Part shown: positions 4,993-18,420 of the stretch, one piece after another
Numbering within the stretch: the stretch's first letter is position 1
Layout of the letters: each line of letters opens with the position of its first letter
DNA from: Limnochorda sp. LNt
GTDB lineage: Bacteria; Bacillota; Limnochordia; Limnochordales; Geochordaceae
Reading direction: 5' to 3'
Assembly (NCBI RefSeq): GCF_035593265.1
Contig: NZ_CP141614.1
Location: 1,364,001-1,428,000 of the forward strand
DNA: 64,000 nucleotides
Translations under genes and position numbers: made by a program
The notes under the pieces: model-generated
Seen by the model: only the letters and a program-made list of their open reading frames with translations
Told to the model about the DNA's origin: nothing
The model's database searches: none

Positions 4993-6134
4993 GTGTTGCG
5001 TAACCCAATTCACTTGTTTGCCAGTCCTGGCTTGTGATACCATGGGCTCATGAAGTACGCACCGCCCATCGAACTGACCGACGAGGAGCGAAGCACTTTG
5101 GAGCAGACCGTCCGGACGCGAACAGCTCCACAGCGGGACCTGTTGCGAGCCCGCATCATCCTGGCCGCGGCGGAAGGGAAGATGAACCGGGAGATCGCCG
5201 CGGCGCTGGGCTGCTCGCTGCCGACGGTGGGCCTGTGGCGCACGCGCTTTGCGAAGCATCGGCTGGAGGGTCTGAAGGAGGCCCCTCGTTCGGGCCGCCC
5301 GCGGACCTACGGCCCTGACAAGGTGAGCGCCATCGTGGCCCAGACGCTGACGCCCCCGGAGCCCCGCACCCACTGGAGCACGCGGCGGCTGGCTCAGGCC
5401 CAGGGCGTCAGCCACATGACCGTCCATCGCATCTGGCGTCGCTACCAGCTGCAACCGCATCGGGTCGAGACCTTCAAGTACAGCCGGGACCCGGAGCTGG
5501 AAGCCAAGGTGGTCGACATCGTCGGGCTGTACCTGCACCCTCCCGGAAATGCTCTGGTGCTCTGCGTGGACGAGAAGAGCCAGATCCAAGCCATCAACCG
5601 CACGCAACCCCTGCTGCCGCTGCGGCCTGGCCAGGTGGAACGACGCAGCCATGACTACGAGCGCCACGGCACCGTCACCCTCTTTGCCGCCCTGAACCTC
5701 GCCACCGGTGAGGTCGAGGGCGAGTGCTACCGGCGCCATCGCCACCAGGAGTTCCTCCGCTTCCTGCGACGCCTGGACAAGACCCACCCCGACGGCGAGA
5801 TGCATCTGATCCTCGACAACTACGCCACCCACAAGCACCCGACGGTCAAGCGGTGGCTTCAGCGTCATCCCCGCTTCACGCTGCACTTCACGCCGACGGG
5901 CGCCTCCTGGCTCAACCTGGTGGAGATTTGGTTCGGGATCCTGCAGAGCCAGGCTTTGCGCCGGGGCAACTTTTACGACGTCGACATGCTGGTCGCCACC
6001 ATCCGGCGATTCATCGAAGCCTGGAAGGAGGATGCCAAGCCCTTTGTCTGGGTCAAGACCCCCGACCAAATCCTGGCCAAAGCCAGGCCTCGAGAGCGGT
6101 GATTGGAAGTAAACACAATTGCGTTACGCGACAC
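4993..6134 (+). mobile_element. IS630-family insertion sequence (TA target duplication)
   Basis: The element is 1142 bp. Its left end is GTGTTGCGTAACCCAATT (4993-5010). The reverse complement of its right end is GTGTCGCGTAACGCAATT, identical at 16 of 18 positions. TA dinucleotides flank it at 4991-4992 and 6135-6136, the signature of IS630/Tc1-mariner insertion. It interrupts a transposase relic whose frame is restored when the element is removed. Its single gene is intact. Confidence 0.93.
5050..6102 (+). CDS. IS630-family transposase
   Basis: This 350-residue transposase has an N-terminal helix-turn-helix region (MNREIAAALGCSLPTVGLW), a second DNA-binding segment (TRRLAQAQGVSHMTVHRIW) and a DDE catalytic core. 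The first Asp is in LVLCVDEKSQIQ, the second in LILDNYATHK and the Glu in SWLNLVEIWF. The reading frame is full length with no lesions and is bounded by well-conserved inverted repeats, so this element appears potentially active. It reads in the same direction as the relic it interrupts. Confidence 0.95.
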   Translation: MKYAPPIELTDEERSTLEQTVRTRTAPQRDLLRARIILAAAEGKMNREIAAALGCSLPTVGLWRTRFAKHRLEGLKEAPRSGRPRTYGPDKVSAIVAQTLTPPEPRTHWSTRRLAQAQGVSHMTVHRIWRRYQLQPHRVETFKYSRDPELEAKVVDIVGLYLHPPGNALVLCVDEKSQIQAINRTQPLLPLRPGQVERRSHDYERHGTVTLFAALNLATGEVEGECYRRHRHQEFLRFLRRLDKTHPDGEMHLILDNYATHKHPTVKRWLQRHPRFTLHFTPTGASWLNLVEIWFGILQSQALRRGNFYDVDMLVATIRRFIEAWKEDAKPFVWVKTPDQILAKARPRER

Positions 6135-6368: not shown

Positions 6369-6395
6369 TAAAGCCAAACCTATCCTTGCCGATAC
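6369..6395 (+). promoter_or_regulatory. Sigma-28 (SigD/FliA) promoter for flagellin
   Basis: TAAA at 6369-6372 is followed by exactly 15 bases and then GCCGATAC at 6388-6395. This matches the TAAA-N15-GCCGATAA consensus of flagellar sigma-28 at all but the last position. It is the only such site I see ahead of the flagellin gene and implies late-class flagellar control. Confidence 0.9.
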
Positions 6396-6545: not shown

Positions 6546-7496
6546 GTGCGAATCGTCAACAACGTGATGGCCCTCAACAGCTGGCGGAACCTGACGGTAA
6601 CGTCGGGCAACCTCGCCAAAACCCTTGAGCGTCTGTCGTCTGGGCTTCGAATCAATCGCGCTGCGGATGACGCGGCTGGGCTCGCCATCTCTGAGAAGAT
6701 GCGGGGCCAGATTCGGGGGCTGAATCAGGCGGTACGCAACGCCCAGGATGGGATCTCGTTAATCCAGACGGCCGAGGGCGCCCTCAACGAGACGCACGCG
6801 ATTCTCCAGCGCATGCGAGAGTTGGCAGTCCAGGCTACAAACGATACCTTGACCGAGAGCGACCGGGAGCAAATCCAGAAGGAGATCAATCAGCTTACGG
6901 CCGAGGTGCAGCGTATCTCCATATACACCGAATTCAACACCCAGCGTCTCCTCGACGGCACTTACACTAATAAGCAGTTCCACATCGGTGCTAATCAGAG
7001 CCAGGTGATCCAATTCAGCATCGCGAACATGGGCGTCGGAGAATTCACTAGCTCTGGGGTGGCGGTCGGCGCTCTCGCGCTTGTTCAGACCGGTGCAGTA
7101 ACCAATTCAGCGGGCACAACGGTCAACGAATTCACGTTCGTCTATTATTCCGGTACAGGGACCCTTGCGCAGCTGACTAGCACGGTTGGCTACGCACTGA
7201 GCGTGATGAGTACAAGCTCGGCTGAGCTGGCGATTAGCAAGTTCAATAACGCTATCGAGTCAGTCTCGTTCGAGCGGTCCAAGCTGGGAGCTCTGCAGAA
7301 TCGCCTGGAGCACACCATCAACAACCTGAGTGTGGCGGCGGAGAACCTGACAGCGGCCGAGTCCCGCATCCGCGACGCCGACATGGCGCAGGAGATGATG
7401 AACTTCGTCCGCAATCAGATCCTGCTGCAGAGCGGTACCGCCATGCTAGCCCAGGCTAACGCGGTACCTCAGTCGGTGCTGCAGCTCCTGGCGTGA
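6546..7496 (+). CDS. fliC: Flagellin (filament subunit)
   Basis: This 316-residue flagellin is exported by the flagellar type III system and forms the filament. The N-terminal D0/D1 region (residues 1 to about 140) is classical: MRIVNNVMALNSWRNL, LSSGLRINRAADDAAGLAIS, QDGISLIQTAEGAL. The C-terminal D1/D0 (from about 225) is also clear, with RIRDADMAQEMMNF and ending NAVPQSVLQLLA. The central variable domain is short, about 80 residues, rich in Ser, Thr and Gly with an FTFVYYSGTG stretch. The start is the GTG at 6546 after a strong GGGAGGGG site. Codon use is less GC-extreme than in the genes to the right. Confidence 0.97.
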   Translation: MRIVNNVMALNSWRNLTVTSGNLAKTLERLSSGLRINRAADDAAGLAISEKMRGQIRGLNQAVRNAQDGISLIQTAEGALNETHAILQRMRELAVQATNDTLTESDREQIQKEINQLTAEVQRISIYTEFNTQRLLDGTYTNKQFHIGANQSQVIQFSIANMGVGEFTSSGVAVGALALVQTGAVTNSAGTTVNEFTFVYYSGTGTLAQLTSTVGYALSVMSTSSAELAISKFNNAIESVSFERSKLGALQNRLEHTINNLSVAAENLTAAESRIRDADMAQEMMNFVRNQILLQSGTAMLAQANAVPQSVLQLLA

Positions 7497-7516
7497 GCGG
7501 CTACGTCGCCCGGTTG

Positions 7517-7539
7517 GGGGGAGAGCCAGCCTCTCCCCC
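7517..7539 (+). terminator. Hairpin after flagellin
   Basis: GGGGGAGAG (7517-7525) pairs perfectly with CTCTCCCCC (7531-7539) across a CCAGC loop, 20 bp after the flagellin stop. No T-run follows, so it may be a processing or stabilising structure, or a weak terminator separating flagellin from the downstream genes. Confidence 0.5.
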
Positions 7540-7577
7540 GCACCGTTCCGTGAATTCGTTGCGGGGTGGGAGCTCCC

Positions 7578-9692
7578 ATGAGCGTCCGGCGCCCGTCGAT
7601 CTCCGCTTGTCTCATCGTACGCGACGAAGAGGCCTTTATCGGCCGGTGCCTCTCCAGCCTGGAAGGCGCCGTGGATGAGGTCGTCGTCGTGGACACGGGC
7701 TCGATAGACCGCACGCCGCAAATCGCCCGGCAACACGGCGCCAGAGTCGTGGCGCGGACGTGGCCGGACGACTTCTCGCTGGCCCGCAACTGGGCGCTGG
7801 AAGAGGCGGGCGGCGACTGGGTGTTCGTCATCGACGCAGATGAGGAGCTCGTGAAGGACGACGCGGGCAAGCTCCGGCGGCTCGCTGCGTCGGGCTTGGC
7901 CGACGGCTACCTCGTCAACGTCCACCACTTCCCGGACAACCCGGACCAGCACCTCATCACCCAGCACGTGGCCCTTTTCCGCAACGACCCTCGCTTCCGC
8001 TACAAGGGGGCCATCCACGAGCAGGTGGGCAGCCAGATCGCCGAAGCGGGCGGGCGCCTGGCGGCCACGGACGTGCGCGTCATCCACCGGGGCTACGAGG
8101 CGTCGGTTATCGCGGCCAAGCGCAAGCACGAGCGCAACCTGTCGCTACTGCAGCGGGAGGCCGAGCGCAACCCGATCGACCCCGTCTGGCACTACTACCT
8201 CGGCCAGGAGTACTACGGCCTGGGGCGCCTGGATGAGGCGGCGCGCGAGTACGAGCAGGCGTTTACCCTGGCGGGGCCGGACTGGAAGTCTCCACACGCG
8301 GTGCCGGGTGTCATCCGCTACAGCCTAGTGCTGGGCGGGCTGCGCCGGTGGGGCAAAGCCTTCGAGCTCCTGGAGCGGTACCGGGCCCTATATCCCAGGA
8401 GCAGCGACCTCCACTACATCCAGGCCATGCTGGCGTCGCAGGTGGGCGACCCCGCTGCCGCCGCGGGCCTGCTGACCCAGGCCCTTGCTTACGGCGACCC
8501 GCCTCCGGGCATGTTCGAGCTGACGCTGCGGGGGACGGGCTCTTTCAAGGCGTGGTTTGAGATGGGGCAGGCGTACGAGCGCCTGCACCAGAAGGAGAAG
8601 GCGGCAGGAGCCTACCTGGAATCGCTGCGGTCCGAGCCGCGGTACGGCAAGGCCGCGCGAGCCCTGACCTCGCTTCTGCTGGAGACGGATGACCCGGAAC
8701 GTGTCGTCACCTTCATGCTGGAGCGAGTCGCCGCCCGCGAGCTCGGCCCCATCGACGGCGTCTGGGAGGCGCTGCTCAACGCCCGGGCTTACCGTCAGGC
8801 CCTGGAGGTGCTGGACCAGCTCGACGGCCAGCTGGTGGGTGAGCGTGACCTGCGCCAGGGCATCACCCTTCTGGCCATGGGAGACAAGGCCTCGGCTCTC
8901 GAGAAGCTGGGGGCGGCGCTGGAGCACGAGGGTACCCGGGACCTGGCGGCCATCGACGGCGTCATCGGGGCGGTGGCGGCCGGGCAGCCGGCGCTGGCGC
9001 GGCGCTTCCTCGAGCAGGTGAACGCCGACAAGTTCCCGGCGGCGGCCGAGATCCTCACGGCGCTGGTGGCCGGTGCCCCCAACGGCGGGCCGAGCATGAA
9101 CGGCGCGCCGCCGGGGGCAGCCCGGGAGATGACGGACGAGACCGCAGCCGAGTTGGTCCGCTACGGGTCCCTGATGGCGGCTACCTGGGTTGACCCGCTC
9201 ACCATGCGCATAACGGGATGGCACGTCGTGCAGCGGGCGCTGGCCTTCGGGTGCCTTGAGGTCGTCGACGCGGTGGTGCAGTACATGGTCGACCGGGGGC
9301 TTCCGGCGGCCGAGGCTGCCTTGGCGCTGGGCAAGATGCTGCACGCGCAGGGGTACCGGGAGACGGGCCTCGAGCTCCTGCTCAAGGCCACCCGCGATGG
9401 GCTTTACGACGTGGGGGCGCTGATAACCCTGGCCAGGGCAGCTCTCGATCAGCATGACCAGGAGGCGGCCGAGGTGCTGCTCCGCAAGGCCGTGGAGGTA
9501 TCGGGCAAGCACCCCGCCCCTGTCATGGCCCTGGCCGCCCTGCTGGCGGAGACCGGGAGGCGGAAGGCCGCCGTTGCCGTCCTGGACGACGCCTTGGAGA
9601 CCAACCCGTACGCGGGTGTGCTGGCCGTCCACCGGGAGCGTCTCCTTCACGGGGCGCACTCGGATGTGGGTGAGTGGGAGGCGGTGCGATGA
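7578..9692 (+). CDS. GT2-family glycosyltransferase with long TPR-type C-terminal region; probable flagellin glycosylation
   Basis: This protein of about 704 residues starts at an ATG (7578) preceded by GGGTGGGAG. Residues 1-220 are a family 2 glycosyltransferase: SACLIVRDEEAFIGRCL, VVVDTGSIDRT, then WVFVIDADEE, which carries the DxD nucleotide-sugar site. The remainder is a helical repeat region of TPR type, with LGQEYYGLGRLDEAAREYEQ as the clearest unit. Lying between flagellin and fliD, it most likely modifies flagellin, as similar GT-TPR proteins do in other Firmicutes. That role is inferred from position. It overlaps fliD by 4 bp (ATGA). Confidence 0.85.
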   Translation: MSVRRPSISACLIVRDEEAFIGRCLSSLEGAVDEVVVVDTGSIDRTPQIARQHGARVVARTWPDDFSLARNWALEEAGGDWVFVIDADEELVKDDAGKLRRLAASGLADGYLVNVHHFPDNPDQHLITQHVALFRNDPRFRYKGAIHEQVGSQIAEAGGRLAATDVRVIHRGYEASVIAAKRKHERNLSLLQREAERNPIDPVWHYYLGQEYYGLGRLDEAAREYEQAFTLAGPDWKSPHAVPGVIRYSLVLGGLRRWGKAFELLERYRALYPRSSDLHYIQAMLASQVGDPAAAAGLLTQALAYGDPPPGMFELTLRGTGSFKAWFEMGQAYERLHQKEKAAGAYLESLRSEPRYGKAARALTSLLLETDDPERVVTFMLERVAARELGPIDGVWEALLNARAYRQALEVLDQLDGQLVGERDLRQGITLLAMGDKASALEKLGAALEHEGTRDLAAIDGVIGAVAAGQPALARRFLEQVNADKFPAAAEILTALVAGAPNGGPSMNGAPPGAAREMTDETAAELVRYGSLMAATWVDPLTMRITGWHVVQRALAFGCLEVVDAVVQYMVDRGLPAAEAALALGKMLHAQGYRETGLELLLKATRDGLYDVGALITLARAALDQHDQEAAEVLLRKAVEVSGKHPAPVMALAALLAETGRRKAAVAVLDDALETNPYAGVLAVHRERLLHGAHSDVGEWEAVR

Positions 9693-11242
9693 GCGTCGAT
9701 CCGGTCAGCTTCGCGGGCAACCGCCTGCGCTTCTTCGGGTTCGCATCGGGGCTCGATATCGACCAGATCGTGTCGAAGCTGATGCAGGCGGAGCGGATTC
9801 CGCTCGACCGGCTGGAGCAGCGGCGCCAGATCCTGGTCTGGACGAAGGAGGACTACCTGAGGATCAGCAGCCTGATGGATGAGCTACGGCAGGCCCTCAC
9901 GCCCCTCAAGCTCAACTCCACCTTCCAGGCTCGCACGGCCTCCTCCTCGGACGGCGGGGTGGTGAGTGCCACCGCCGCGCCAGGCACTCCTGCGGGGACG
10001 CACGAGATCACGGTGACCCAGCTGGCGAAGGGAATTCAACTCGCCAGCTCGGGGGCCATCTCTCGCACCTCGGACCGCCGCACCCTGTGGACTCAGTTTG
10101 GCATCGACCCCAACGCTTCGCCCAGCTTCACCTTGAACCTGCAGGTCACCGACAGCCGGGGGCCCAGGTCGGCCAGCCTCACCTTCAGCGTCACCGACCC
10201 GTCCAGGGACGACATCGGTGACCTCGTCGCGGCCATCAACAACAGCGGACTGGGGCTGACGGCCGTCTACGACGCCACTCTGGACCGGCTCTTCATCACC
10301 AGCCAGGAGACGGGCGGATCGGTGAGCCTGACGGTCGGCGACGCCACCGTGACGCTCAGCGAAGGCGGCTCGGACACCGTCTGGGAGGGGTTGCTCAAGC
10401 TGGGGAGCACCGCGGCGCCATTCACCGGACAGGACGCCGTGTTCAGCCTCGACGGCGCCAGCGGGCTTCAGGTGTCCACCAACCGCTTCACCATCGGCGG
10501 GGTCACGTACGAGCTCAAGGGGCTGGGCACCGCGACCGTCACGGTCTTCCAGGACACGGACGCCATGGTCCAGGCCATCACGGCCTTCGTGGACAAGTAC
10601 AACGAGGCCCTGGGCGAGATAAACGGCAAGGTCAGCGAGCGACGGCTGTACGATTACCCGCCCCTCACCGAGGCGCAGAAGAAGGACATGACCCAGGACG
10701 AGATCGACGCCTGGCAGAAGAAGGCCAGGCAGGGCCTGCTGCAGGCCAATTCGCTGCTCATCAGCATCGCCTCCCGAATGCGCCTGGACGTGTCCAACCG
10801 GGTGCAGGGGACGGGCTCGGTTTACACGACGCTGGCCTCCATCGGCATCACCACCGGCTCCTACGAAGAGGGCGGCAAGCTCTACGTCGACGAGGCGAAG
10901 CTGCGCGAAGCCCTTCAGACCGACCCGTATGGCGTCGCGGCTTTGTTCACGACCGCTGGCACGTCGTCGGACACCCAGGGGGTCGCCATCCGGCTGGGCA
11001 GCACGCTGGATCTCGCCATCGGACGCATCCGGACCCGAGCGGGCCTGGCCGGCGTGGAGGTGGATGGCAGCGGGCTGGGACGGGAGATCGCCCTCCTCGA
11101 TGACCAGATGGCGCGTATGGAAGAGAGGCTCTCCGCCCTTGAGGAGCGTTACTACCGACAGTTCAGCGTCATGGAAGAGGTGCTTGCCCAGCTCGGTGCC
11201 CAGGCCGCATGGCTGAGCCAGCAGTTCGGCGGAGGTGGCTGA
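9689..11242 (+). CDS. fliD: Flagellar hook-associated protein 2 / filament cap
   Basis: This 517-residue FliD caps the growing filament and assists flagellin polymerisation outside the cell. FliD_N is evident at residues 1-110, with GLDIDQIVSKLMQAER and a long amphipathic helix (RRQILVWTKEDYLRI). The middle is beta-rich and Ser/Thr-rich. FliD_C begins near 290 (DAMVQAITAFVDKYNEAL) and ends in a coiled coil (LDDQMARMEERLSALEERYY). The ATG at 9689 overlaps the upstream stop, indicating translational coupling. Confidence 0.95.
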   Translation: MSVDPVSFAGNRLRFFGFASGLDIDQIVSKLMQAERIPLDRLEQRRQILVWTKEDYLRISSLMDELRQALTPLKLNSTFQARTASSSDGGVVSATAAPGTPAGTHEITVTQLAKGIQLASSGAISRTSDRRTLWTQFGIDPNASPSFTLNLQVTDSRGPRSASLTFSVTDPSRDDIGDLVAAINNSGLGLTAVYDATLDRLFITSQETGGSVSLTVGDATVTLSEGGSDTVWEGLLKLGSTAAPFTGQDAVFSLDGASGLQVSTNRFTIGGVTYELKGLGTATVTVFQDTDAMVQAITAFVDKYNEALGEINGKVSERRLYDYPPLTEAQKKDMTQDEIDAWQKKARQGLLQANSLLISIASRMRLDVSNRVQGTGSVYTTLASIGITTGSYEEGGKLYVDEAKLREALQTDPYGVAALFTTAGTSSDTQGVAIRLGSTLDLAIGRIRTRAGLAGVEVDGSGLGREIALLDDQMARMEERLSALEERYYRQFSVMEEVLAQLGAQAAWLSQQFGGGG

Positions 11243-11625
11243 TGCAGCGAGGGGGTGGTGTGCGAATGGACCTGGCACCCTGGGCCGATGCCCTGCGGGA
11301 CCTCCTCGGTGCGCTGGAGAAGCCGGAAGGGGAACCCGAAACCGTTCGGTTGCTCCTGGGGCGAGTGCAGCGGGCCTATGAGGAGGCCAGGAGTCGCTGG
11401 GCCGCGGAAACGGTGAGCGGCGGGGTCGGCCTTGCCGACAGGCGCGAGGCCGTGGCGCTGCTGGAGCTGCAGCGGGAGTGCGTGGAGCGGGCTCAGCGCA
11501 TCCGAGACCGTAGCGCGTCGAAGCTCCAGGAGATCCGCGCGGGGAAGGAGACGGCCCGAGGGTACCGGCGCGCGCTGGGGACCCTGTCAGGCTCGGCTCC
11601 CACTCCCTATGACTGGCGGATTTAA
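11242..11625 (+). CDS. Small helical protein between fliD and fliS; candidate flagellar chaperone
   Basis: The longest coupled frame begins at an ATG overlapping the fliD stop (TGATG) and encodes 127 residues. Internal starts at 11260 (GTG) or 11266 (ATG), just after GAGGGGG, are also plausible. The protein is mostly helical and charged, and ends with KETARGYRRAL...YDWRI, a tail seen in small unannotated proteins of flagellar clusters. Position and size suggest a FliT-like chaperone, but I see no diagnostic FliT motif. Confidence 0.65.
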   Translation: MQRGGGVRMDLAPWADALRDLLGALEKPEGEPETVRLLLGRVQRAYEEARSRWAAETVSGGVGLADRREAVALLELQRECVERAQRIRDRSASKLQEIRAGKETARGYRRALGTLSGSAPTPYDWRI

Positions 11626-11654
11626 GGGCGTCGAGCCGGAAGGGAAGTCATGCG

Positions 11655-12077
11655 GTGAACGGTGAAGAGGCCGTCCTCGCCTATCGCAGGCAGCAGGTGG
11701 AGACGGCGTCGCCAGCGCAGCTCGTCGTTATGCTCTACGACGGGTGCATCCGGCACTGTCGGGCGGCGCAGGAGGCCATCGCCAGGGAGGGGCGGGACGC
11801 CGCGGCCCGGCACCTCCTCAAAGCGCAGGACATCGTGAGCGAACTGATGGCGTGCCTCAACCTGGACGCCGGCGGCGAGATTGCGACCCGCTTGCTGCGC
11901 CTTTACGAATACATGTATCGGCGCCTGGTCCTGGCCAATGTCAGAAAGGATGCGTCGGCTGTGCGGGAGGTGGAAGGCCTTCTGGTGGGGCTCCGGGATG
12001 CCTGGGCCCAGGTCGCGTCCACTCCGCCCGCGACGATGCAACCGGCATCGGACCGGGGGGCTGGCCCGGTGGCCTGA
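11655..12077 (+). CDS. fliS: Flagellar export chaperone FliS
   Basis: This 140-residue FliS binds the C-terminus of flagellin in the cytoplasm and prevents premature polymerisation. The hallmark N-terminal region is present: AYRRQQVETASPAQLVVMLY followed by DGCIRHCRAAQEAI. It is followed by the four-helix core (ATRLLRLYEYMYRRLVLAN). The start is a GTG at 11655 after GGAAGGGAAG. The last 25 residues are a low-complexity Ala/Pro tail. It is the last gene of the filament locus. Confidence 0.95.
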   Translation: MNGEEAVLAYRRQQVETASPAQLVVMLYDGCIRHCRAAQEAIAREGRDAAARHLLKAQDIVSELMACLNLDAGGEIATRLLRLYEYMYRRLVLANVRKDASAVREVEGLLVGLRDAWAQVASTPPATMQPASDRGAGPVA

Positions 12078-12173: not shown

Positions 12174-13211
12174 GTGCTTCTACAGGTGGGCACGCCGGTC
12201 GCCGCAGGCGTGGCGAAGCGGTTGGCTGCGATATGCGAGGCGCTGTCGGAGGCGGCCGACGCCGAGGAGCTCGCGCGTCGGGCGGTGCGGGCCGCCGCGG
12301 AGGTGGCAGGCGCTCGGCGAACCGAGCTGTGGCGGCGCGAGGCCGGGCAGGAGCGCCTGGAGGCCGGGTGGCCCGACGAGACGGAGGCGACTCCGGTCTC
12401 CCCGACGTCGGGCGCGGCCGAGCAGGCGGTCGCCGACGGCCCGTGGGATGAGGACAGAGGGCCCGCCGGGTCCGGGGGCATGCCACCCTCGGCGCAGGCG
12501 GTGCCCGAGCGCGTGGACATCCCCTTGCGCGCCTGTGGCGAGACGCTGGGCCGGCTGGTGGTCATCGAGCCGAGGCGCCCTGGCCCGTGGCTCGAGCTGG
12601 TGGCCGCCCACACCGCGGTCTGCCTGGCGCACCTGGAGGCCCGCCAGAGCCTGCGCCGCACCGTGCTGCAGATGGTCACGGCCTTCTCGGAGCTGGTCGA
12701 GAGCCGTGACCAGTACACCGAGGCCCACTCCCTCCACATCGCCGAGCTCGCCCTGCAGGTGGGGCTGCGGCTGGGCCTGGACCCGGCGCGCTTCGACTCG
12801 CTGATCTACGCCGCCCTGCTGCACGACCTCGGCAAGGTGGGCGTCCCCGACGCCATCCTGCTCAAGCCCGGGGCTCTCTCCGAGGCCGAGTGGGAGACGA
12901 TGCGCCGCCACCCCTCCATCGGACGGCGGGCCCTGGAGCGCATCGATCTCCTGCGCGACGCCGCCGAGATCGTCGAGCAGCACCACGAACGCTTCGACGG
13001 CAACGGATACCCTCACGGGCTGGCGGGGGAGGCCATCCGCATCGAAGCCCGCATCATCGCCGTGGTGGACGCCTTCGACGCCATGACGACGACGCGGCCC
13101 TACCGCCCTGCCCTGAGCCGCGCGCAGGCGCTGGCGGAGCTCCGGCGCTGCGCCGGCAGCCAGTTCGACCCTCGGGTCGTGGAGGCGCTGCTGAGCGTGG
13201 TCGGCCCTTGA
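12174..13211 (+). CDS. HD-GYP domain protein with N-terminal GAF-like region (c-di-GMP phosphodiesterase type)
   Basis: This 345-residue protein starts at a GTG after AGGGGGG. Residues 1-150 resemble a divergent GAF-type sensor with a Pro/Ala/Gly-rich insertion around residues 75-110. A linking helix then leads to an HD-GYP domain (about 165-345): SRDQYTEAHSLHIA, LLHDLGKVGVPD with the HD metal ligands, HHERFDGNGYPHGL with the GYP motif, then VVDAFDAMTTTRPYR. HD-GYP domains commonly hydrolyse c-di-GMP. It opens the apparent operon that continues into the FapA fusion and the stressosome genes. Confidence 0.9.
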   Translation: MLLQVGTPVAAGVAKRLAAICEALSEAADAEELARRAVRAAAEVAGARRTELWRREAGQERLEAGWPDETEATPVSPTSGAAEQAVADGPWDEDRGPAGSGGMPPSAQAVPERVDIPLRACGETLGRLVVIEPRRPGPWLELVAAHTAVCLAHLEARQSLRRTVLQMVTAFSELVESRDQYTEAHSLHIAELALQVGLRLGLDPARFDSLIYAALLHDLGKVGVPDAILLKPGALSEAEWETMRRHPSIGRRALERIDLLRDAAEIVEQHHERFDGNGYPHGLAGEAIRIEARIIAVVDAFDAMTTTRPYRPALSRAQALAELRRCAGSQFDPRVVEALLSVVGP

Positions 13212-13248: not shown

Positions 13249-15549
13249 ATGCACGCACGCTCCATCGTGGTGGTGCTCCGGGGCGGGGACCGGTCGGTGG
13301 TGGTCGGATGTCGGGGCGCCGCCCGCGACCTGGCCCGGACCGTGGGTTTCGACCCCGCCGACCAGGTCCGCATCGCCACGGCGGTATCGGAGGTGGTGCG
13401 GGTGGCCATCCAGCATGCCGACGGGGCTTCACTGACGCTGCGCCAGGTCCAGCTGCCGGGCCGGCGCGGGCTCGAGGTCGTGGTGGAAGACACCGGCGCC
13501 ACCTTCGCCGACCTCGACCGGGCGCTTCCCAACGGCGGCTCCGCGGCGGAGCCCGAGCCCGGGCTCGTCGCCGCGCTTCGCCTCATGGACGAGTACGAGG
13601 TGCAGCCCCTCGAGCCCCGCGGCGCGCGCGTGCGGGTCTGCAAGTGGCTCCCGGTGCCCCATGGAGCCGCCGACCAAGACGTGCCCGGCCGAGTGGAGGT
13701 GGAGACGGTCCCGCCGGGCCGAGGGGCCCCCGAGGCAGGAGGCCCGGGCCTCGCCGCCCCGCCCGAAGGCGCTGGCCCTCCCGCTGGCGAAGACGGCGCG
13801 CTCGCCGTGCAGCGGGGCCGGGTCATCCTCTACGCGCCCTCGGGCAGCGGGCGCCTGCCCACCCTGCGGCCAGGTCCGCACGTGGCCGTGCGGGTCAACG
13901 GCACCCCGGTCCAGCGCCTGCGGGTGGTGCGCCCCGGGGACCGCATCGAGGTGGAACTGATCCACGACGAGCCGGCGGTGGACCTGCGGGTGGAGGTCTC
14001 GCCCGACGGACTCGAGGCCGTCTTGCACGTCGAGCGCCGACCGGGTCGTCGCTATGCCCTGGCGGATCGACCCCCGAGCGCGGATCTCACGCTGACCGCG
14101 GTGCCCGTCGAGACCCTGCCTCCGCCCCCCGTCAGCCGGGAGACCATCATGACGGCGCTGCAGGCGGCGGGCGTCGTCTACGGCATCGACGAGGCGGCGG
14201 TGCGGGCGGTGCAGGCCTCCGACGAGAGCGGCGCGGTGATCGTCGCGCGGGGCCTGCCGCCCGTGCCGTCCCAGGACGGGCGCACCGAGGTCCACTTCGA
14301 GGACGCCCCCTACGTCCTCGCCGCACCGCCCGACGAGGCGCTCCGGGCCGACCCGCTGGAGCTGTACCGGGTGTCGACGGTGGCGCCGGGCGCCCTGCTG
14401 GCCACCCGCCACCCACCCCGCGCTGGCCACCCGGGCCGCAAGGTGACCGGCGAGGTCATCCCCGTCGCCACCCCCAAGGACGCCCGGCTCCGCATCGGCC
14501 CCGGTGTCCTGAGCGACGAGGAGCACCAGCGGGCCTACGCCGCTCGGGGCGGGCGGCCGACCTTCCACCGCGGCGTGGTGGCGGTGCTGCCCCTGCACAC
14601 CGTCTACGGTGACGTCAGCCCGGAGACGGGGCATGTCGTCTTCGACGGGGATGTGCTGGTGATCGGCGACGTGGGGGAGAGCATGCGGGTCGAGGCTGGC
14701 GGGCGGCTGACGGTGGGGGGCGTCGTCTCGGGCGCGGAGGTGCGGGCCGAGGAGGGGGCGGCCATCGGCCGGGGCATCGTGCGATCCCGGGTCGTGGTGG
14801 GCGGGCAGGCCGCCGCGGCGCTGGAGCTGGCCGCCGCGCTTCGACCGGTCCAGCGCCAGGTCGAGCAGCTGGTGACGGCCGTCCGGTTCTTCAAGCAGCA
14901 GGCGTCGGTCACGGCACGGGTGGCGGCGCTGGGCGACGGTCCCATCGTGCGGGCCTTGGTCGAGCGCAAGTTCGCGGGGCTGCCCCGCCTCGTCGAGGGG
15001 CTGCTGGGCATGGCAAGCCGCGCGGCGCAGGCGGGCGCCGAGGGGTGGGACGAGCTGGTCTCCACCCTCTACCGGGCGGTCACGGGGCCCCCCGGTCGCG
15101 AGGGGGTCGCCGTCGACGACCTGGCTCGGATCGCCAGGCGGCTCGGCGAGCTCGCCGAGAGCCTGGGCGCCAGCCAGGGGCAGCCGGCCGACGTCTTCAC
15201 CCGCTACATCCACAACGCTCTGGTGGAGGCCAGCGGCACCGTGCGCATGCCGTCGGGCGCCTGCCACTACGCCCGGATCCGGGCGGGCCGGGGCTTCGTC
15301 ATGGAGTCGGGGGTCTTTCGGGGCGACGAGATCGTGGTGCAGGCGGGGCGCGTCGTCCTGGACGAGGTCGGCAGCCCCACCGGGTCGAAGGTATGGATTG
15401 CCATCGTCGAGACGGGTGAGGTGGTGGCCCGGCTGGTGCACCCCGGCGTGACGGTGAGCATCGGCGGGCGCCGGCACGACTTCGTGGCGCCGGCCCGGCT
15501 GGTACGGGTGCGGCCCACCGACACCGGCCTCGAGGTGGGGCCGGGCTAG
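13249..15549 (+). CDS. FapA (DUF342) protein with N-terminal degenerate RsbT-like GHKL domain
   Basis: This 766-residue fusion starts at ATG 13249, 37 bp after the HD-GYP gene. Residues 1-135 align by eye with RsbT, next to gene 16875-17318: ADQVRIATAVSEVVR matches VDQVRIATAVSEIAR, and the domain ends VRVCKWLP where RsbT ends VVMRRWKE. The N-box Asn of RsbT is Val52 here and the G1 glycines are incomplete after Asp81 (EDTGATF), so kinase activity is doubtful. A Pro/Gly-rich linker of about 45 residues follows. The remainder, from about residue 300, is FapA/DUF342: RKVTGEVIPVA, RPTFHRGVVAVL, beta-helix repeats (GDVSPETGHVVFDGDVLVIGD in the central part), a coiled-coil insertion and a closing beta-helix. 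I do not know this fusion as a characterised protein. Confidence 0.85.
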   Translation: MHARSIVVVLRGGDRSVVVGCRGAARDLARTVGFDPADQVRIATAVSEVVRVAIQHADGASLTLRQVQLPGRRGLEVVVEDTGATFADLDRALPNGGSAAEPEPGLVAALRLMDEYEVQPLEPRGARVRVCKWLPVPHGAADQDVPGRVEVETVPPGRGAPEAGGPGLAAPPEGAGPPAGEDGALAVQRGRVILYAPSGSGRLPTLRPGPHVAVRVNGTPVQRLRVVRPGDRIEVELIHDEPAVDLRVEVSPDGLEAVLHVERRPGRRYALADRPPSADLTLTAVPVETLPPPPVSRETIMTALQAAGVVYGIDEAAVRAVQASDESGAVIVARGLPPVPSQDGRTEVHFEDAPYVLAAPPDEALRADPLELYRVSTVAPGALLATRHPPRAGHPGRKVTGEVIPVATPKDARLRIGPGVLSDEEHQRAYAARGGRPTFHRGVVAVLPLHTVYGDVSPETGHVVFDGDVLVIGDVGESMRVEAGGRLTVGGVVSGAEVRAEEGAAIGRGIVRSRVVVGGQAAAALELAAALRPVQRQVEQLVTAVRFFKQQASVTARVAALGDGPIVRALVERKFAGLPRLVEGLLGMASRAAQAGAEGWDELVSTLYRAVTGPPGREGVAVDDLARIARRLGELAESLGASQGQPADVFTRYIHNALVEASGTVRMPSGACHYARIRAGRGFVMESGVFRGDEIVVQAGRVVLDEVGSPTGSKVWIAIVETGEVVARLVHPGVTVSIGGRRHDFVAPARLVRVRPTDTGLEVGPG

Positions 15550-15632
15550 ACGACCGCCCGGGGGTGCCCACGGGTGACGGGAGCTGCCATGTGGAAGGCG
15601 AGCGCATGCAAGAGGGGGAGGGGGTCGGCTTG

Positions 15633-16541
15633 ATGGGCGAAGCGTCATCGTGGGATACTGCGGACAGCCTCGGTCGGCTGACCGATGAGGAAGCGGCCGG
15701 GTTGCAGGACGTCCTTGCCATCTTCGAGGCGTCGCGGGAGCGCCTGGAGGCCCGGATGAGGGAGCTGGCCGCCCGGTGGCCCGATGTGCAGGCGCTGCTC
15801 GAGGATGACCCGACCCGAGGGGCACGCTCGCAGCAATCGAGGGCGCTGCTGCGCGAAGGTGTCGAGGCGAGAGACATCGGCGCCTACCTGGCCCGGGCCC
15901 AGCAGGACGCGCGGGAGCTGGCGGGGCGGGGCGTGGCCTTCGCCACGGTGGTGCGATGGCTGACCCGGATGGTGCCGCTGGTCCAGGCCGAACTGGTGGC
16001 GCAACTCGGCGAGGACCAAGAGCGGCTCGTCCGGGGGCTCACGGCCCTGGCGCGGTTGGTGGGGGCGCTGCTGAGCGTCGCCGGGGCGGAGTACGCCGAC
16101 GTCCGAAGAGAGCTGCTGGAGCAGGAGTATCGTCGGGTCCTGCGGGAGCTGTCGGTGCCGGTCGTGCCGGTCTGGCACGGCGTGCTGGTGGTGCCGCTGG
16201 TGGGCGTGCTCGACAGCGCCCGGGCCCGGGAGTTGACACAGACCCTCCTGGAGTCCATCGCCCGGGAGCGGGCCCGGGTGGCCATCCTGGACGTCACCGG
16301 CGTGCCGGCGGTCGACACCCAGGTGGCCGACTACCTGCTCCGTACCGTCAAGGCGGCCCGGCTATTGGGGGCACAGAGCGTGCTGGTGGGCATCCGGCCG
16401 GCCATCGCCCAGACGCTGGTGCGGCTCGGGGTGGATCTGCACGAGGTGGCCACGGAGGCCGATCTGCAGTCGGGTCTGGCCTATGCCCTGCGCCTGATGG
16501 GCCTGCGCATCGTGGAGGATGAGGATGCCGAGGATGGATGA
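15633..16541 (+). CDS. rsbR: Stressosome sensor RsbR-type protein (RsbRD_N-like plus STAS)
   Basis: This 302-residue protein uses ATG 15633, eight bases after AGGGGGAGGGGG; ATG 15606 behind GGAAGG is an alternative. Residues 1-185 are an all-helical N-terminal domain of the RsbRD type, the presumed sensor. The C-terminal STAS domain has both phosphorylatable threonines of RsbR proteins: Thr229 in DVTGVPAVDTQVADYLL and Thr261 in AIAQTLVRLGV, equivalent to Thr171 and Thr205 of B. subtilis RsbRA. RsbR and RsbS co-assemble into the cytoplasmic stressosome and hold RsbT. Only one RsbR paralogue lies in this window. Confidence 0.92.
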   Translation: MGEASSWDTADSLGRLTDEEAAGLQDVLAIFEASRERLEARMRELAARWPDVQALLEDDPTRGARSQQSRALLREGVEARDIGAYLARAQQDARELAGRGVAFATVVRWLTRMVPLVQAELVAQLGEDQERLVRGLTALARLVGALLSVAGAEYADVRRELLEQEYRRVLRELSVPVVPVWHGVLVVPLVGVLDSARARELTQTLLESIARERARVAILDVTGVPAVDTQVADYLLRTVKAARLLGAQSVLVGIRPAIAQTLVRLGVDLHEVATEADLQSGLAYALRLMGLRIVEDEDAEDG

Positions 16542-16932
16542 GACGCCCGAGATCCCGCTGTTGACGCTGCGGGATACCCTCGTCGTCGCCATTCAGGGCG
16601 AGCTGCACGACCGAGCGGCCGAGCGCCTGCAGCGACGGATCCTGGACCGCATCGCCGAGAGCCGGCCCAGGGGGCTGCTCATCGACGTGACGGGCCTGCC
16701 GGTGGTCGACTCGTTTCTCGGGAGGCTCCTGCGCGACACCGCGCTGATGGCGAGGATGATGGGGGTGCCGACGGTCCTGGTGGGGCTCCAGCCGGCCGTG
16801 GCCGTCACGCTGGCGGAGCTGGGGCTGGAGCTGCCGGGCGTTCACACCGATCTGGACCTGGAGCGGGGACTGGCGTGGCTGCAACGACAAGGGAGGCAGA
16901 CGCCGCCGGCGGGGCGCGCTCGGTCACGGTAG
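16525..16932 (+). CDS. rsbS: Stressosome scaffold protein RsbS (STAS)
   Basis: This 135-residue single STAS domain starts at ATG 16525, six bases after GGAGG, overlapping the end of rsbR by 17 bp. The conserved phosphoacceptor is Ser63 in DVTGLPVVDSFLGRLL, matching Ser59 of B. subtilis RsbS, followed by MMGVPTVLVGLQPAVAVTL. RsbT phosphorylates this serine under stress and is then released. It also overlaps the next gene by 58 bp, so RsbR-S-T should be co-translated. Confidence 0.95.
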   Translation: MPRMDETPEIPLLTLRDTLVVAIQGELHDRAAERLQRRILDRIAESRPRGLLIDVTGLPVVDSFLGRLLRDTALMARMMGVPTVLVGLQPAVAVTLAELGLELPGVHTDLDLERGLAWLQRQGRQTPPAGRARSR

Positions 16933-17318
16933 ACGTGGCCGCCTTCGACGAGGAGAGCCTCGTCGCCGCTCGCGGGGCCGCCCGCGAGATGGCCAGGGAG
17001 CTGGGTTTTGGCGTGGTGGACCAGGTGCGCATCGCCACCGCGGTCTCGGAGATCGCCCGCAACATCCTCCTGTACGCCGGGACGGGCACCGTCCGTATCC
17101 GGGAGTGCCGGAGCGGCGACCGCGTGGGGCTCGAGGTCGTCGCCGAGGACCGGGGGCCGGGCATCCCCGACGTGGAGCGGGTATTGCGGGGCGGCTACAG
17201 CACGTCGGGCGGCTTCGGCCGTGGCATCGCCGGGGCACGGGCCCTGATGAGCGAGTTTCACCTGGAGAGCCGCCCGGGGGAGGGGACCCGCGTCGTGATG
17301 CGCCGATGGAAGGAGTAG
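16875..17318 (+). CDS. rsbT: Serine kinase RsbT (stressosome switch kinase)
   Basis: This 147-residue GHKL/HATPase_c_2 protein starts at a GTG (16875) after GGAGCGGGG within rsbS. The ATP site looks intact: N-box Asn63 in AVSEIARNILLYAG, G1 Asp92 in AEDRGPGIPD, and a glycine-rich G2 lid (GGFGRGIAGARALM). In the family it phosphorylates RsbS and RsbR, leaves the complex and activates a partner. In B. subtilis that partner is the phosphatase RsbU, which is not recognisable here. It overlaps the next gene by 13 bp. Confidence 0.95.
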   Translation: MAATTREADAAGGARSVTVDVAAFDEESLVAARGAAREMARELGFGVVDQVRIATAVSEIARNILLYAGTGTVRIRECRSGDRVGLEVVAEDRGPGIPDVERVLRGGYSTSGGFGRGIAGARALMSEFHLESRPGEGTRVVMRRWKE

Positions 17319-18337
17319 GGGGCCCCTCGCTCGCCGTCCGCCTCGAGATCGCCCGGGAGTCCGACATCTACGAGGCACGCTATCAGGCCCGGCAGCTGGC
17401 TCGGGCCACGGGCTTCGACGCGTACGACCAGGCCGCCATCGAGACGGCCGTCGCCGAGCTGGCCACCAACCTCCACCGCCACGCGGGGCGAGGCACGCTG
17501 GCGTTGAGGTCCGCTCCGGTCGGCGATCGCCCCCGGGCGCTCGACGTGGAGGCGACCAATGCTCGGGTCGGCCCGGTGGAGCCCGGGCGCTCCTGCGACC
17601 CGTACCATGAAGGGCTCGGCATCGGGCTGGCCGGGGTGCAGCGGTTGATGGACGAGGTGCAGCTCGACTACGTGGGCGGGCGCTTTCGGGTACGGGCCCG
17701 CAAGTGGCTGCCGGCCTTTCGCCCCGAGCCCGTGCTGGAGACGGCCGGCATCGTGGAGGGGATCGAGCGCTACCGGGTAGACGTGGCCTGCCGGCCCCGC
17801 CAGGCCCACGCCTGCGCCGACACCTACCTCATCGCGGAGGACCACGGGGCGCTGCTGGTGCTGGTGGCCGATGTGCTCGGTCACGGGCGGGAGGCGGCCG
17901 AGGTGGCGCGGGTGCTGCAGGCCGTTGCCCGGCGGCTGGTCTCGGAGAAGGCGTGGACGGCGGGCGCGGGCCGGGTGGTGGAGCAGCTGCACGAGACACT
18001 GCGGGGCAGCCGGGGGGCGTGCGTGCTGGCACTGACCGTCGCCCCCGACGGGCGCCGTGTCGAGTGGGCGGGCGCGGGCAACGTGCGGGGCCGGCTCTGG
18101 CACGCCGGCGAGGGCGGCGCCGTGCCGTTGCTGGTCCCGCCGGGCGTCGCCGGCTACAGCCTCCGTCGGGTGCAGGCGCAGTCGGCCGAGCTGACCCCAC
18201 CGGCCTGCCTGGTCATCGTCAGCGACGGGGTCGACGAGGCCGCCCTCGATCGCCGCCCCGCGGGCACGGCCGAGGCCCTGCTGCGCCGTTGGGCTTCGCC
18301 CCGCGACGACGCCACGGCGGTCCTGGTGCGGTGGTAG
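17306..18337 (+). CDS. RsbT-like ATP-binding domain fused to SpoIIE/RsbX-type PP2C phosphatase
   Basis: This 343-residue protein starts at ATG 17306, inside the end of rsbT. Residues 1-135 are RsbT-like, with N-box Asn55 in AVAELATNLHRHAG and a G2 lid GLGIGLAGVQRLMDE, but the G1 box is altered (VEATNARVGP instead of EDRGPGI). Residues 150-343 are a SpoIIE/PP2C phosphatase with metal-binding acids in LVADVLGHGREAAE, VIVSDGVDEAAL and ASPRDDATAVLV. Such ATP-binding SpoIIE proteins follow rsbRST in many non-Bacillus genomes and probably dephosphorylate RsbS/RsbR, as RsbX does. That role is inferred from architecture and position. Confidence 0.9.
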   Translation: MEGVGGPSLAVRLEIARESDIYEARYQARQLARATGFDAYDQAAIETAVAELATNLHRHAGRGTLALRSAPVGDRPRALDVEATNARVGPVEPGRSCDPYHEGLGIGLAGVQRLMDEVQLDYVGGRFRVRARKWLPAFRPEPVLETAGIVEGIERYRVDVACRPRQAHACADTYLIAEDHGALLVLVADVLGHGREAAEVARVLQAVARRLVSEKAWTAGAGRVVEQLHETLRGSRGACVLALTVAPDGRRVEWAGAGNVRGRLWHAGEGGAVPLLVPPGVAGYSLRRVQAQSAELTPPACLVIVSDGVDEAALDRRPAGTAEALLRRWASPRDDATAVLVRW

Positions 18338-18390: not shown

Positions 18391-18420
18391 TTTTCAATGG
18401 CGGCGGGACGGTGATAGAAT
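18391..18420 (+). promoter_or_regulatory. Weak candidate promoter ahead of yebC
   Basis: TTTTCA (18391-18396) and TAGAAT (18415-18420) are separated by 18 bp, about 87 bp ahead of the yebC start, in the only sizeable gap between the stressosome operon and the yebC-ruv run. The -35 match is poor. Confidence 0.35.

Follow-up and report, generated by a model that had tools for sequence, protein, structure and literature searches.

A FapA (DUF342) protein carrying a degenerate RsbT-like domain in an rsbRST operon of Limnochorda sp. LNt

Flagellar and stressosome genes around the fusion gene

The window, i.e. the whole 64,000-nucleotide stretch of Limnochorda sp. LNt that was analysed (contig NZ_CP141614.1, positions 1,364,001 to 1,428,000), carries a series of genes in the order fliC, a glycosyltransferase gene, fliD, a small ORF, fliS, an HD-GYP gene, the fusion gene considered here, rsbR, rsbS, rsbT, a HATPase-SpoIIE gene, yebC and ruvC-ruvA-ruvB. 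The flagellar group (fliC, the glycosyltransferase-TPR gene, fliD, a 138-aa ORF and fliS; 6546..12077, + strand) was recognized from Flagellin_N (E 1.7e-48) and FliS (E 3.6e-41), fliD being named from its sequence. About 150 bp 5' of fliC lies a sigma28-type promoter (6369..6394, + strand), exact to the pattern TAAA-N16-CCGATA (0.01 expected by chance), which is possibly the head of a transcription unit. A transposase gene of the IS630 family (5050-6102) is located directly upstream of this promoter region.

The product of the HD-GYP gene (12174..13211, + strand; start codon uncertain) displays an HD_5 domain (E 4.5e-41) with HDLGK and GYP motifs and is presumed to be a c-di-GMP phosphodiesterase. 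Beyond the fusion gene lie genes encoding an RsbR-like stressosome sensor/scaffold (15564..16541, + strand; STAS E 3e-16; start uncertain), in which the two threonines of RsbR are present in VTGVPAVDT and GIRPAIAQT, the STAS scaffold RsbS (16519..16932, + strand; STAS E 3e-13), which carries the phospho-Ser position in DVTGLPVVDS, and RsbT, an intact GHKL serine kinase (16875..17318, + strand; HATPase_c E 2.6e-11; N-box, G1 and G2 intact). The position of RsbX is held by a HATPase_c_2 domain fused to a SpoIIE phosphatase (17306..18337, + strand; SpoIIE E 4e-16; HATPase_c_2 E 7.8e-08). Contiguous rsbR, rsbS and rsbT genes, with intact phosphosite residues and a PP2C-type phosphatase, correspond to an rsbRST stressosome operon. 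The operon genes around the fusion overlap or stand close together, and the + strand showed nothing terminator-like as far as position 18391, where a promoter-like site precedes yebC. The HATPase of the phosphatase has a damaged G1 box of its own (NARVG), and genes of the same size with an RsbT-like HATPase N-terminus follow rsbT in L035, L037, L093 and L085.

The fusion gene itself (13249-15549, + strand) is a single uninterrupted ORF whose translation is 766 aa long. Its ATG is immediately preceded by a ribosome-binding site, AGGAG, graded strong, and its codon-position GC is uniform, with no break between domains. Therefore, a frameshift or a mis-called start is unlikely to be the source of the fusion and, the gene being in a single frame, was rejected. 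Pfam finds HATPase_c_2 at residues 21-132 (E 2.3e-10) and FapA_N (PF20250) at residues 247-440 (E 4.8e-34), followed by the FapA beta-solenoid (PF03961) at residues 449-521 (E 3.6e-19, the match spanning just positions 2-77 of a 272-position profile). Each of these hits passes its curated cut-off; in the full-length model, the solenoid region is made of beta strands.

Three parts can thus be delimited: an RsbT-derived GHKL pseudokinase domain (residues 1-135; 13249..13653, + strand), assigned from HATPase_c_2, identity to RsbT, AlphaFold2 (AF2) and VIA comparisons and lost ATP motifs; a probably disordered linker (residues ~136-180; 13654..13788, + strand); and a FapA part comprising FapA_N, the beta-solenoid, a helical region and a C-terminal beta-domain (13789..15549, + strand), recognized by Pfam, by alignment with 20 FapAs and in a high-confidence model. 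The identity of these parts is held to be practically certain. An earlier note, made from the sequence, had aligned the N-terminus by eye with the RsbT encoded 1.3 kb downstream and ascribed the remainder to FapA/DUF342. Indeed, in a BLASTP comparison, 132 aa align with the local RsbT (16875-17318) at 39% identity (E 1e-22), the DQVRIATAVSE block is identical letter for letter, and the FapA_N and FapA domains account for the rest. The end that the note placed near residue 135 also stands, with the correction that a disordered linker then runs to ~180.

Fold and ATP site of the N-terminal domain

The AF2 model of the N-terminal domain, built from a 27-sequence alignment, has a mean pLDDT of 85.4 and a pTM of 0.81 and is poor only at the ATP-lid region. 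RsbW (6m37, 6m36) and SpoIIAB rank first when this model is submitted to Foldseek, and SpoIIAB and RsbW also come first when the fusion N-terminus is compared with solved structures by sequence profile. VIA-align gives Z 16.2 with RsbW 6m36_C (rmsd 1.4, 102 aligned) and about 15 with SpoIIAB, histidine kinase domains scoring 8.8 at most. The full-length model (mean pLDDT 89, pTM 0.61) displays the GHKL domain, then 39 residues (136-174) with pLDDT below 50, then FapA; its matches to solved structures lie mostly in the GHKL domain, and a sequence search found no solved FapA structure. The N-terminal domain is therefore predicted to have a GHKL (Bergerat) fold of the RsbW/SpoIIAB type. Pfam, AF2, Foldseek and VIA all agree here with the earlier note, which had taken the first 135 residues to be RsbT-like and would have given up its reading had structure prediction returned another fold. 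An origin of the domain from histidine kinases or other GHKL proteins is disfavoured by both the tree (see below) and the structure ranking.

By its motifs, the ATP site of this domain is degenerate. The 25 aligned RsbTs show little or no variation in the N-box Asn, the G1 box DxGPGI and the glycines of G2 and G3. The N-box position of the fusion is Val52, as the earlier note had read it, for an Asn in 25/25 RsbTs. The G1 box is DTGATF instead of DxGPGI: the note had called its glycine pattern broken, which holds for PGI, replaced by ATF, but only in part, since Asp81 and the first glycine, Gly83, remain. The G2 box reads EPEPG versus GFGRG, so that the GxGxG glycines preceding helix 4 are absent; the columns of G103 and G108, invariant in RsbTs, hold Glu and Ala; and Ala126 replaces the Thr of the RsbT G-T pair. 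In RsbT numbering, for which L070 served as guide (it matches the published B. subtilis R19, R23, N24 and D92 letter for letter), the lost or broken elements are therefore N49, G82, the G2 glycines and the G-T pair.

Four residues of interest are kept, R22, R26, E48 and D81, equivalent to RsbT R19, R23, E45 and D78. Glu45 is the proposed catalytic base of RsbT (PMC9237128), and R19 and R23 bind RsbU (PMC12143880). As the arginine pair is known for RsbU binding, its retention argues for partner binding as such and not for RsbS specifically. More globally, 26 of 41 order-invariant residues are kept outside the ATP region versus 11 of 26 within it, a trend that is not significant (Fisher p 0.13). 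Loss of Mg2+/ATP ligands together with a largely kept binding helix is the pattern that a docking pseudokinase should display.

Origin of the fusion and its distribution

In a tree of RsbT and related domains, the fusion domain groups with the RsbTs of Limnochordales (100/99), those of G005 and G008 being nearest, and a repeat tree of 24 rows again places it with the RsbTs of the order (100/98). Its branch is very long, 2.6-3.8 changes per column in the two trees. Topology tests reject neither a grouping with the local RsbT alone (p 0.118) nor a position outside the four RsbTs of the order (p 0.074). Judging from these trees, the domain stems from an RsbT of the order itself, of which it is a retired copy.

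In the FapA tree, the FapA part is sister to the FapA of G013 (97/92), and this relative (L034:5421-7544) bears a Jag_N domain (E 6.8e-14) at the same N-terminal position. Therefore, the RsbT-like domain fills a variable slot; several other FapAs in the alignment with 20 FapAs display Jag_N-like N-termini by eye. The genome of the fusion has another FapA (G000:C1:2346385-2348175), which adjoins cheR and clusters with FapAs from the same family; the fusion is thus a second FapA, and a spare RsbT fills its variable N-terminal slot. No Pfam domain was found in the long N-termini in L031, L032 and L033; in L033, the extension overlaps an HD-GYP frame and probably does not code for protein.

The whole fusion was used as query in 61 relatives, in 73 genomes of the class and in 398 of the phylum, i.e. 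about 455 distinct genomes, the phylum survey scoring the two best stretches per genome among the matches listed: no other FapA match extends into the RsbT-like domain. Nor was a second fusion found in the 14 genomes of the order or in a class of 20 genomes. With the N-terminal domain or RsbT as queries, a frame longer than 640 aa was found only at the fusion, frames of 430-640 aa also occurring elsewhere, and a scan of contigs with one FapA pattern retrieved 10 FapA loci and no fusion. One locus considered as a second fusion, L052 (HR32), which is 57% identical in part, holds only a FapA remnant on a short contig devoid of rsb genes and was rejected. A wide occurrence of the fusion in genomes lacking rsbRST, which the earlier note had named as evidence against its own proposal, was not observed: the survey found no fusion in such genomes. 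The fusion is a new domain architecture built from known parts and found in one genome.

In Limnochordales, 13 of the 14 genomes have flagellin and 7/14 have FapA. The seven genomes with no FapA match all have flagellin, and FapA is therefore not required for flagella in this order; G013 (91% complete) has FapA and no flagellin match.

The operon was also compared with those of relatives. One genome of the same genus (G001) and another of the order (G008) display HD-GYP-rsbR-rsbS-rsbT-(HATPase gene) with no FapA in between, the HD-GYP gene lying directly 5' of rsbR (L036:2844-4547; L037:2949-3899); hence, either LNt acquired the fusion gene or these relatives lost it. G005 has rsbRST with no adjoining HD-GYP gene. 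HD-GYP genes adjoin FapA genes in G005 and G002, and one lies near FapA in G247. This last genome, from another family, carries in succession rsbR-S-T-X, an RsbU_N histidine kinase, REC, REC-PAS-HD-GYP-HATPase, STAS, a SpoIIE phosphatase and an unfused FapA, which supports a functional grouping of such parts elsewhere than in the window. The REC-PAS-HD-GYP protein of this neighbourhood (L090:8053-9954) ends with a C-terminal HATPase_c_2. RsbU_N (PF08673) was found in none of the 14 genomes of the order, the control being positive in B. subtilis; the RsbT client there must therefore be another protein, and the HD-GYP protein encoded beside rsbRST is a candidate.

A possible link between the stressosome and FapA

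The name FapA is also borne by a Pseudomonas amyloid protein, which belongs to a family different from DUF342. In Vibrio, DUF342 FapA is a flagellar protein: dephospho-EIIAGlc is bound by it, and HubP recruits it to the pole (PMC6877527). FapA is also found with sigma28 in flagellar operons (PMC11607428). A FapA carried as regulator-controlled cargo therefore has a precedent in its control by EIIAGlc and HubP. Among the settings that the earlier note had attributed to FapA, the flagellar one agrees with these papers, but no literature support was found for polymyxin resistance or biofilm lipids; CpaM/ZitP was rejected as a case of DUF342 proteins, the paper concerning DUF3426. Kinases of the RsbT/SpoIIAB type bind STAS partners and let them go after phosphorylating them, and phosphorylated core proteins of the stressosome release RsbT (PMC9237128, PMC12154155). 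Stressosomes control motility in Vibrio vulnificus, where c-di-GMP is a proposed link (PMC10014275), and in Listeria (PMC13101537). The literature search found no paper joining DUF342 and the stressosome.

The preferred reading, for which we would claim somewhat less than an even chance, is that, as the earlier note had suggested, the pseudo-RsbT domain docks FapA on RsbS/RsbR or competes there with active RsbT. Having a degenerate ATP site, the domain could neither phosphorylate RsbS/RsbR nor free itself as RsbT does; with its fold and the helix bearing the arginine pair kept, it would most likely still bind the STAS face of RsbS/RsbR, or else compete with active RsbT at this face. The flexible tether would hold the FapA solenoid at the stressosome. 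As a docking domain lacking the ATP site would depend on true RsbT for its release, phosphorylation of the STAS core by RsbT would free FapA together with RsbT, and the freed FapA would act on a flagellar or surface target, the adjoining HD-GYP protein providing a second, c-di-GMP output. The location of the fusion gene inside the rsbRST operon, the intact phosphosites of RsbS and RsbR and the likeness of the domain to RsbT in sequence, fold and tree argue for docking, as do the loss of ATP motifs beside the kept equivalents of R19, R23, E45 and D78 and the clustering of rsbRST, HD-GYP and FapA in a second lineage (G247). However, the fusion is found in one genome, hence no conservation or co-variation speaks for it, and the very long branch of the domain also fits a loss of all function.

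This branch, together with the restriction to one genome and the lack of any match to the fusion gene in the same-genus relative, is what would be expected if the domain were a neutral, decaying relic of a tandem rsbT duplication fused to fapA, which would have no signalling role and leave FapA to work as usual. We nevertheless consider such a relic distinctly unlikely, as the 135-residue domain keeps an open frame, a predicted fold and Pfam significance, still has 26 of the 41 residues that are invariant in the order and lie outside the ATP region, and shows codon-position GC as strong as in the remainder of the gene. Another reading makes the domain mainly a device that stabilises, dimerises or localises FapA independently of RsbS/RsbR, as Jag_N may do elsewhere. 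SpoIIAB-like GHKL domains form dimers, and Jag_N occupies the same position in the nearest FapA relative (G013, 97/92) and, by eye, in several others; but this reading leaves the position inside the rsbRST operon to chance, and the domain derives from the RsbT group of the order, not from any GHKL family. We hold this to be quite improbable.

The kept arginines raise still another possibility, since R22 and R26 correspond to the residues with which RsbT binds its client RsbU (PMC12143880). The pseudo-RsbT might bind an RsbT client, most likely the HD-GYP protein, and couple FapA to c-di-GMP control, either blocking RsbT as a decoy or serving as a constitutive activator. The absence of RsbU_N from all 14 genomes of the order, which calls for another client, agrees with this, as do the HD-GYP genes found before rsbR in G001 and G008, before the fusion here, and beside (G005, G002) or near (G247) FapA genes. 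However, the HD-GYP protein has no RsbU_N domain, the literature search found no contact between RsbT and HD-GYP proteins, and rsbRST of G005 has no neighbouring HD-GYP gene; client binding appears unlikely.

Each part of the fusion can also be compared with its known relatives. The domain resembles RsbT in its GHKL fold, its 38-44% identity to the RsbTs of the order, the DQVRIATAVSE block, the equivalents of R19, R23, E45 and D78 and its location in an rsbRST operon, but differs from it by the loss of the N-box Asn, the PGI of G1 and the G2 glycines, by its fusion to FapA and by the presence of a separate, intact RsbT. The best matches among solved structures (6m36, 6m37, 1th8 and 1til) are anti-sigma kinases of the SpoIIAB/RsbW type, which bind STAS partners; unlike them, the fusion has no separate sigma-factor context and a degenerate ATP site, and identity in the structural alignments is 14-30%. 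Like FapA/DUF342 proteins, it has FapA_N and the beta-solenoid, with ~29-38% identity over ~580 residues to FapAs across the phylum, whereas it is a second paralogue (the usual flagellar FapA adjoins cheR) with an N-terminal GHKL domain seen nowhere else in the survey. The Jag_N-FapA of G013, the nearest by tree, shares an accessory domain in the same N-terminal slot but has Jag_N instead of the RsbT-like domain and, on its 7.7 kb contig, no rsbRST beside the gene.

The fusion, found in one genome, is plausible as a link from the stressosome to FapA. The boldest form of this proposal, which we regard as possible but somewhat unlikely, is that the stressosome carries a non-kinase client, the pseudo-RsbT occupying RsbT sites on RsbS/RsbR with FapA as its cargo, so that stress sensing would directly determine how much of a motility or surface protein is free, with no sigma factor or phosphatase cascade. 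The wiring of stressosome outputs beyond the RsbU-sigma-B route is little known, and a dead RsbT joined to FapA in an rsbRST operon would, if this is true, be a direct physical link between the stressosome and motility or the cell surface. The fusion would also supply a natural RsbT with a dead ATP site, allowing RsbT binding to be separated from RsbT catalysis. Furthermore, the order-wide absence of RsbU_N and the HD-GYP genes beside rsbRST make the identity of the RsbT client in Limnochordales a testable question.
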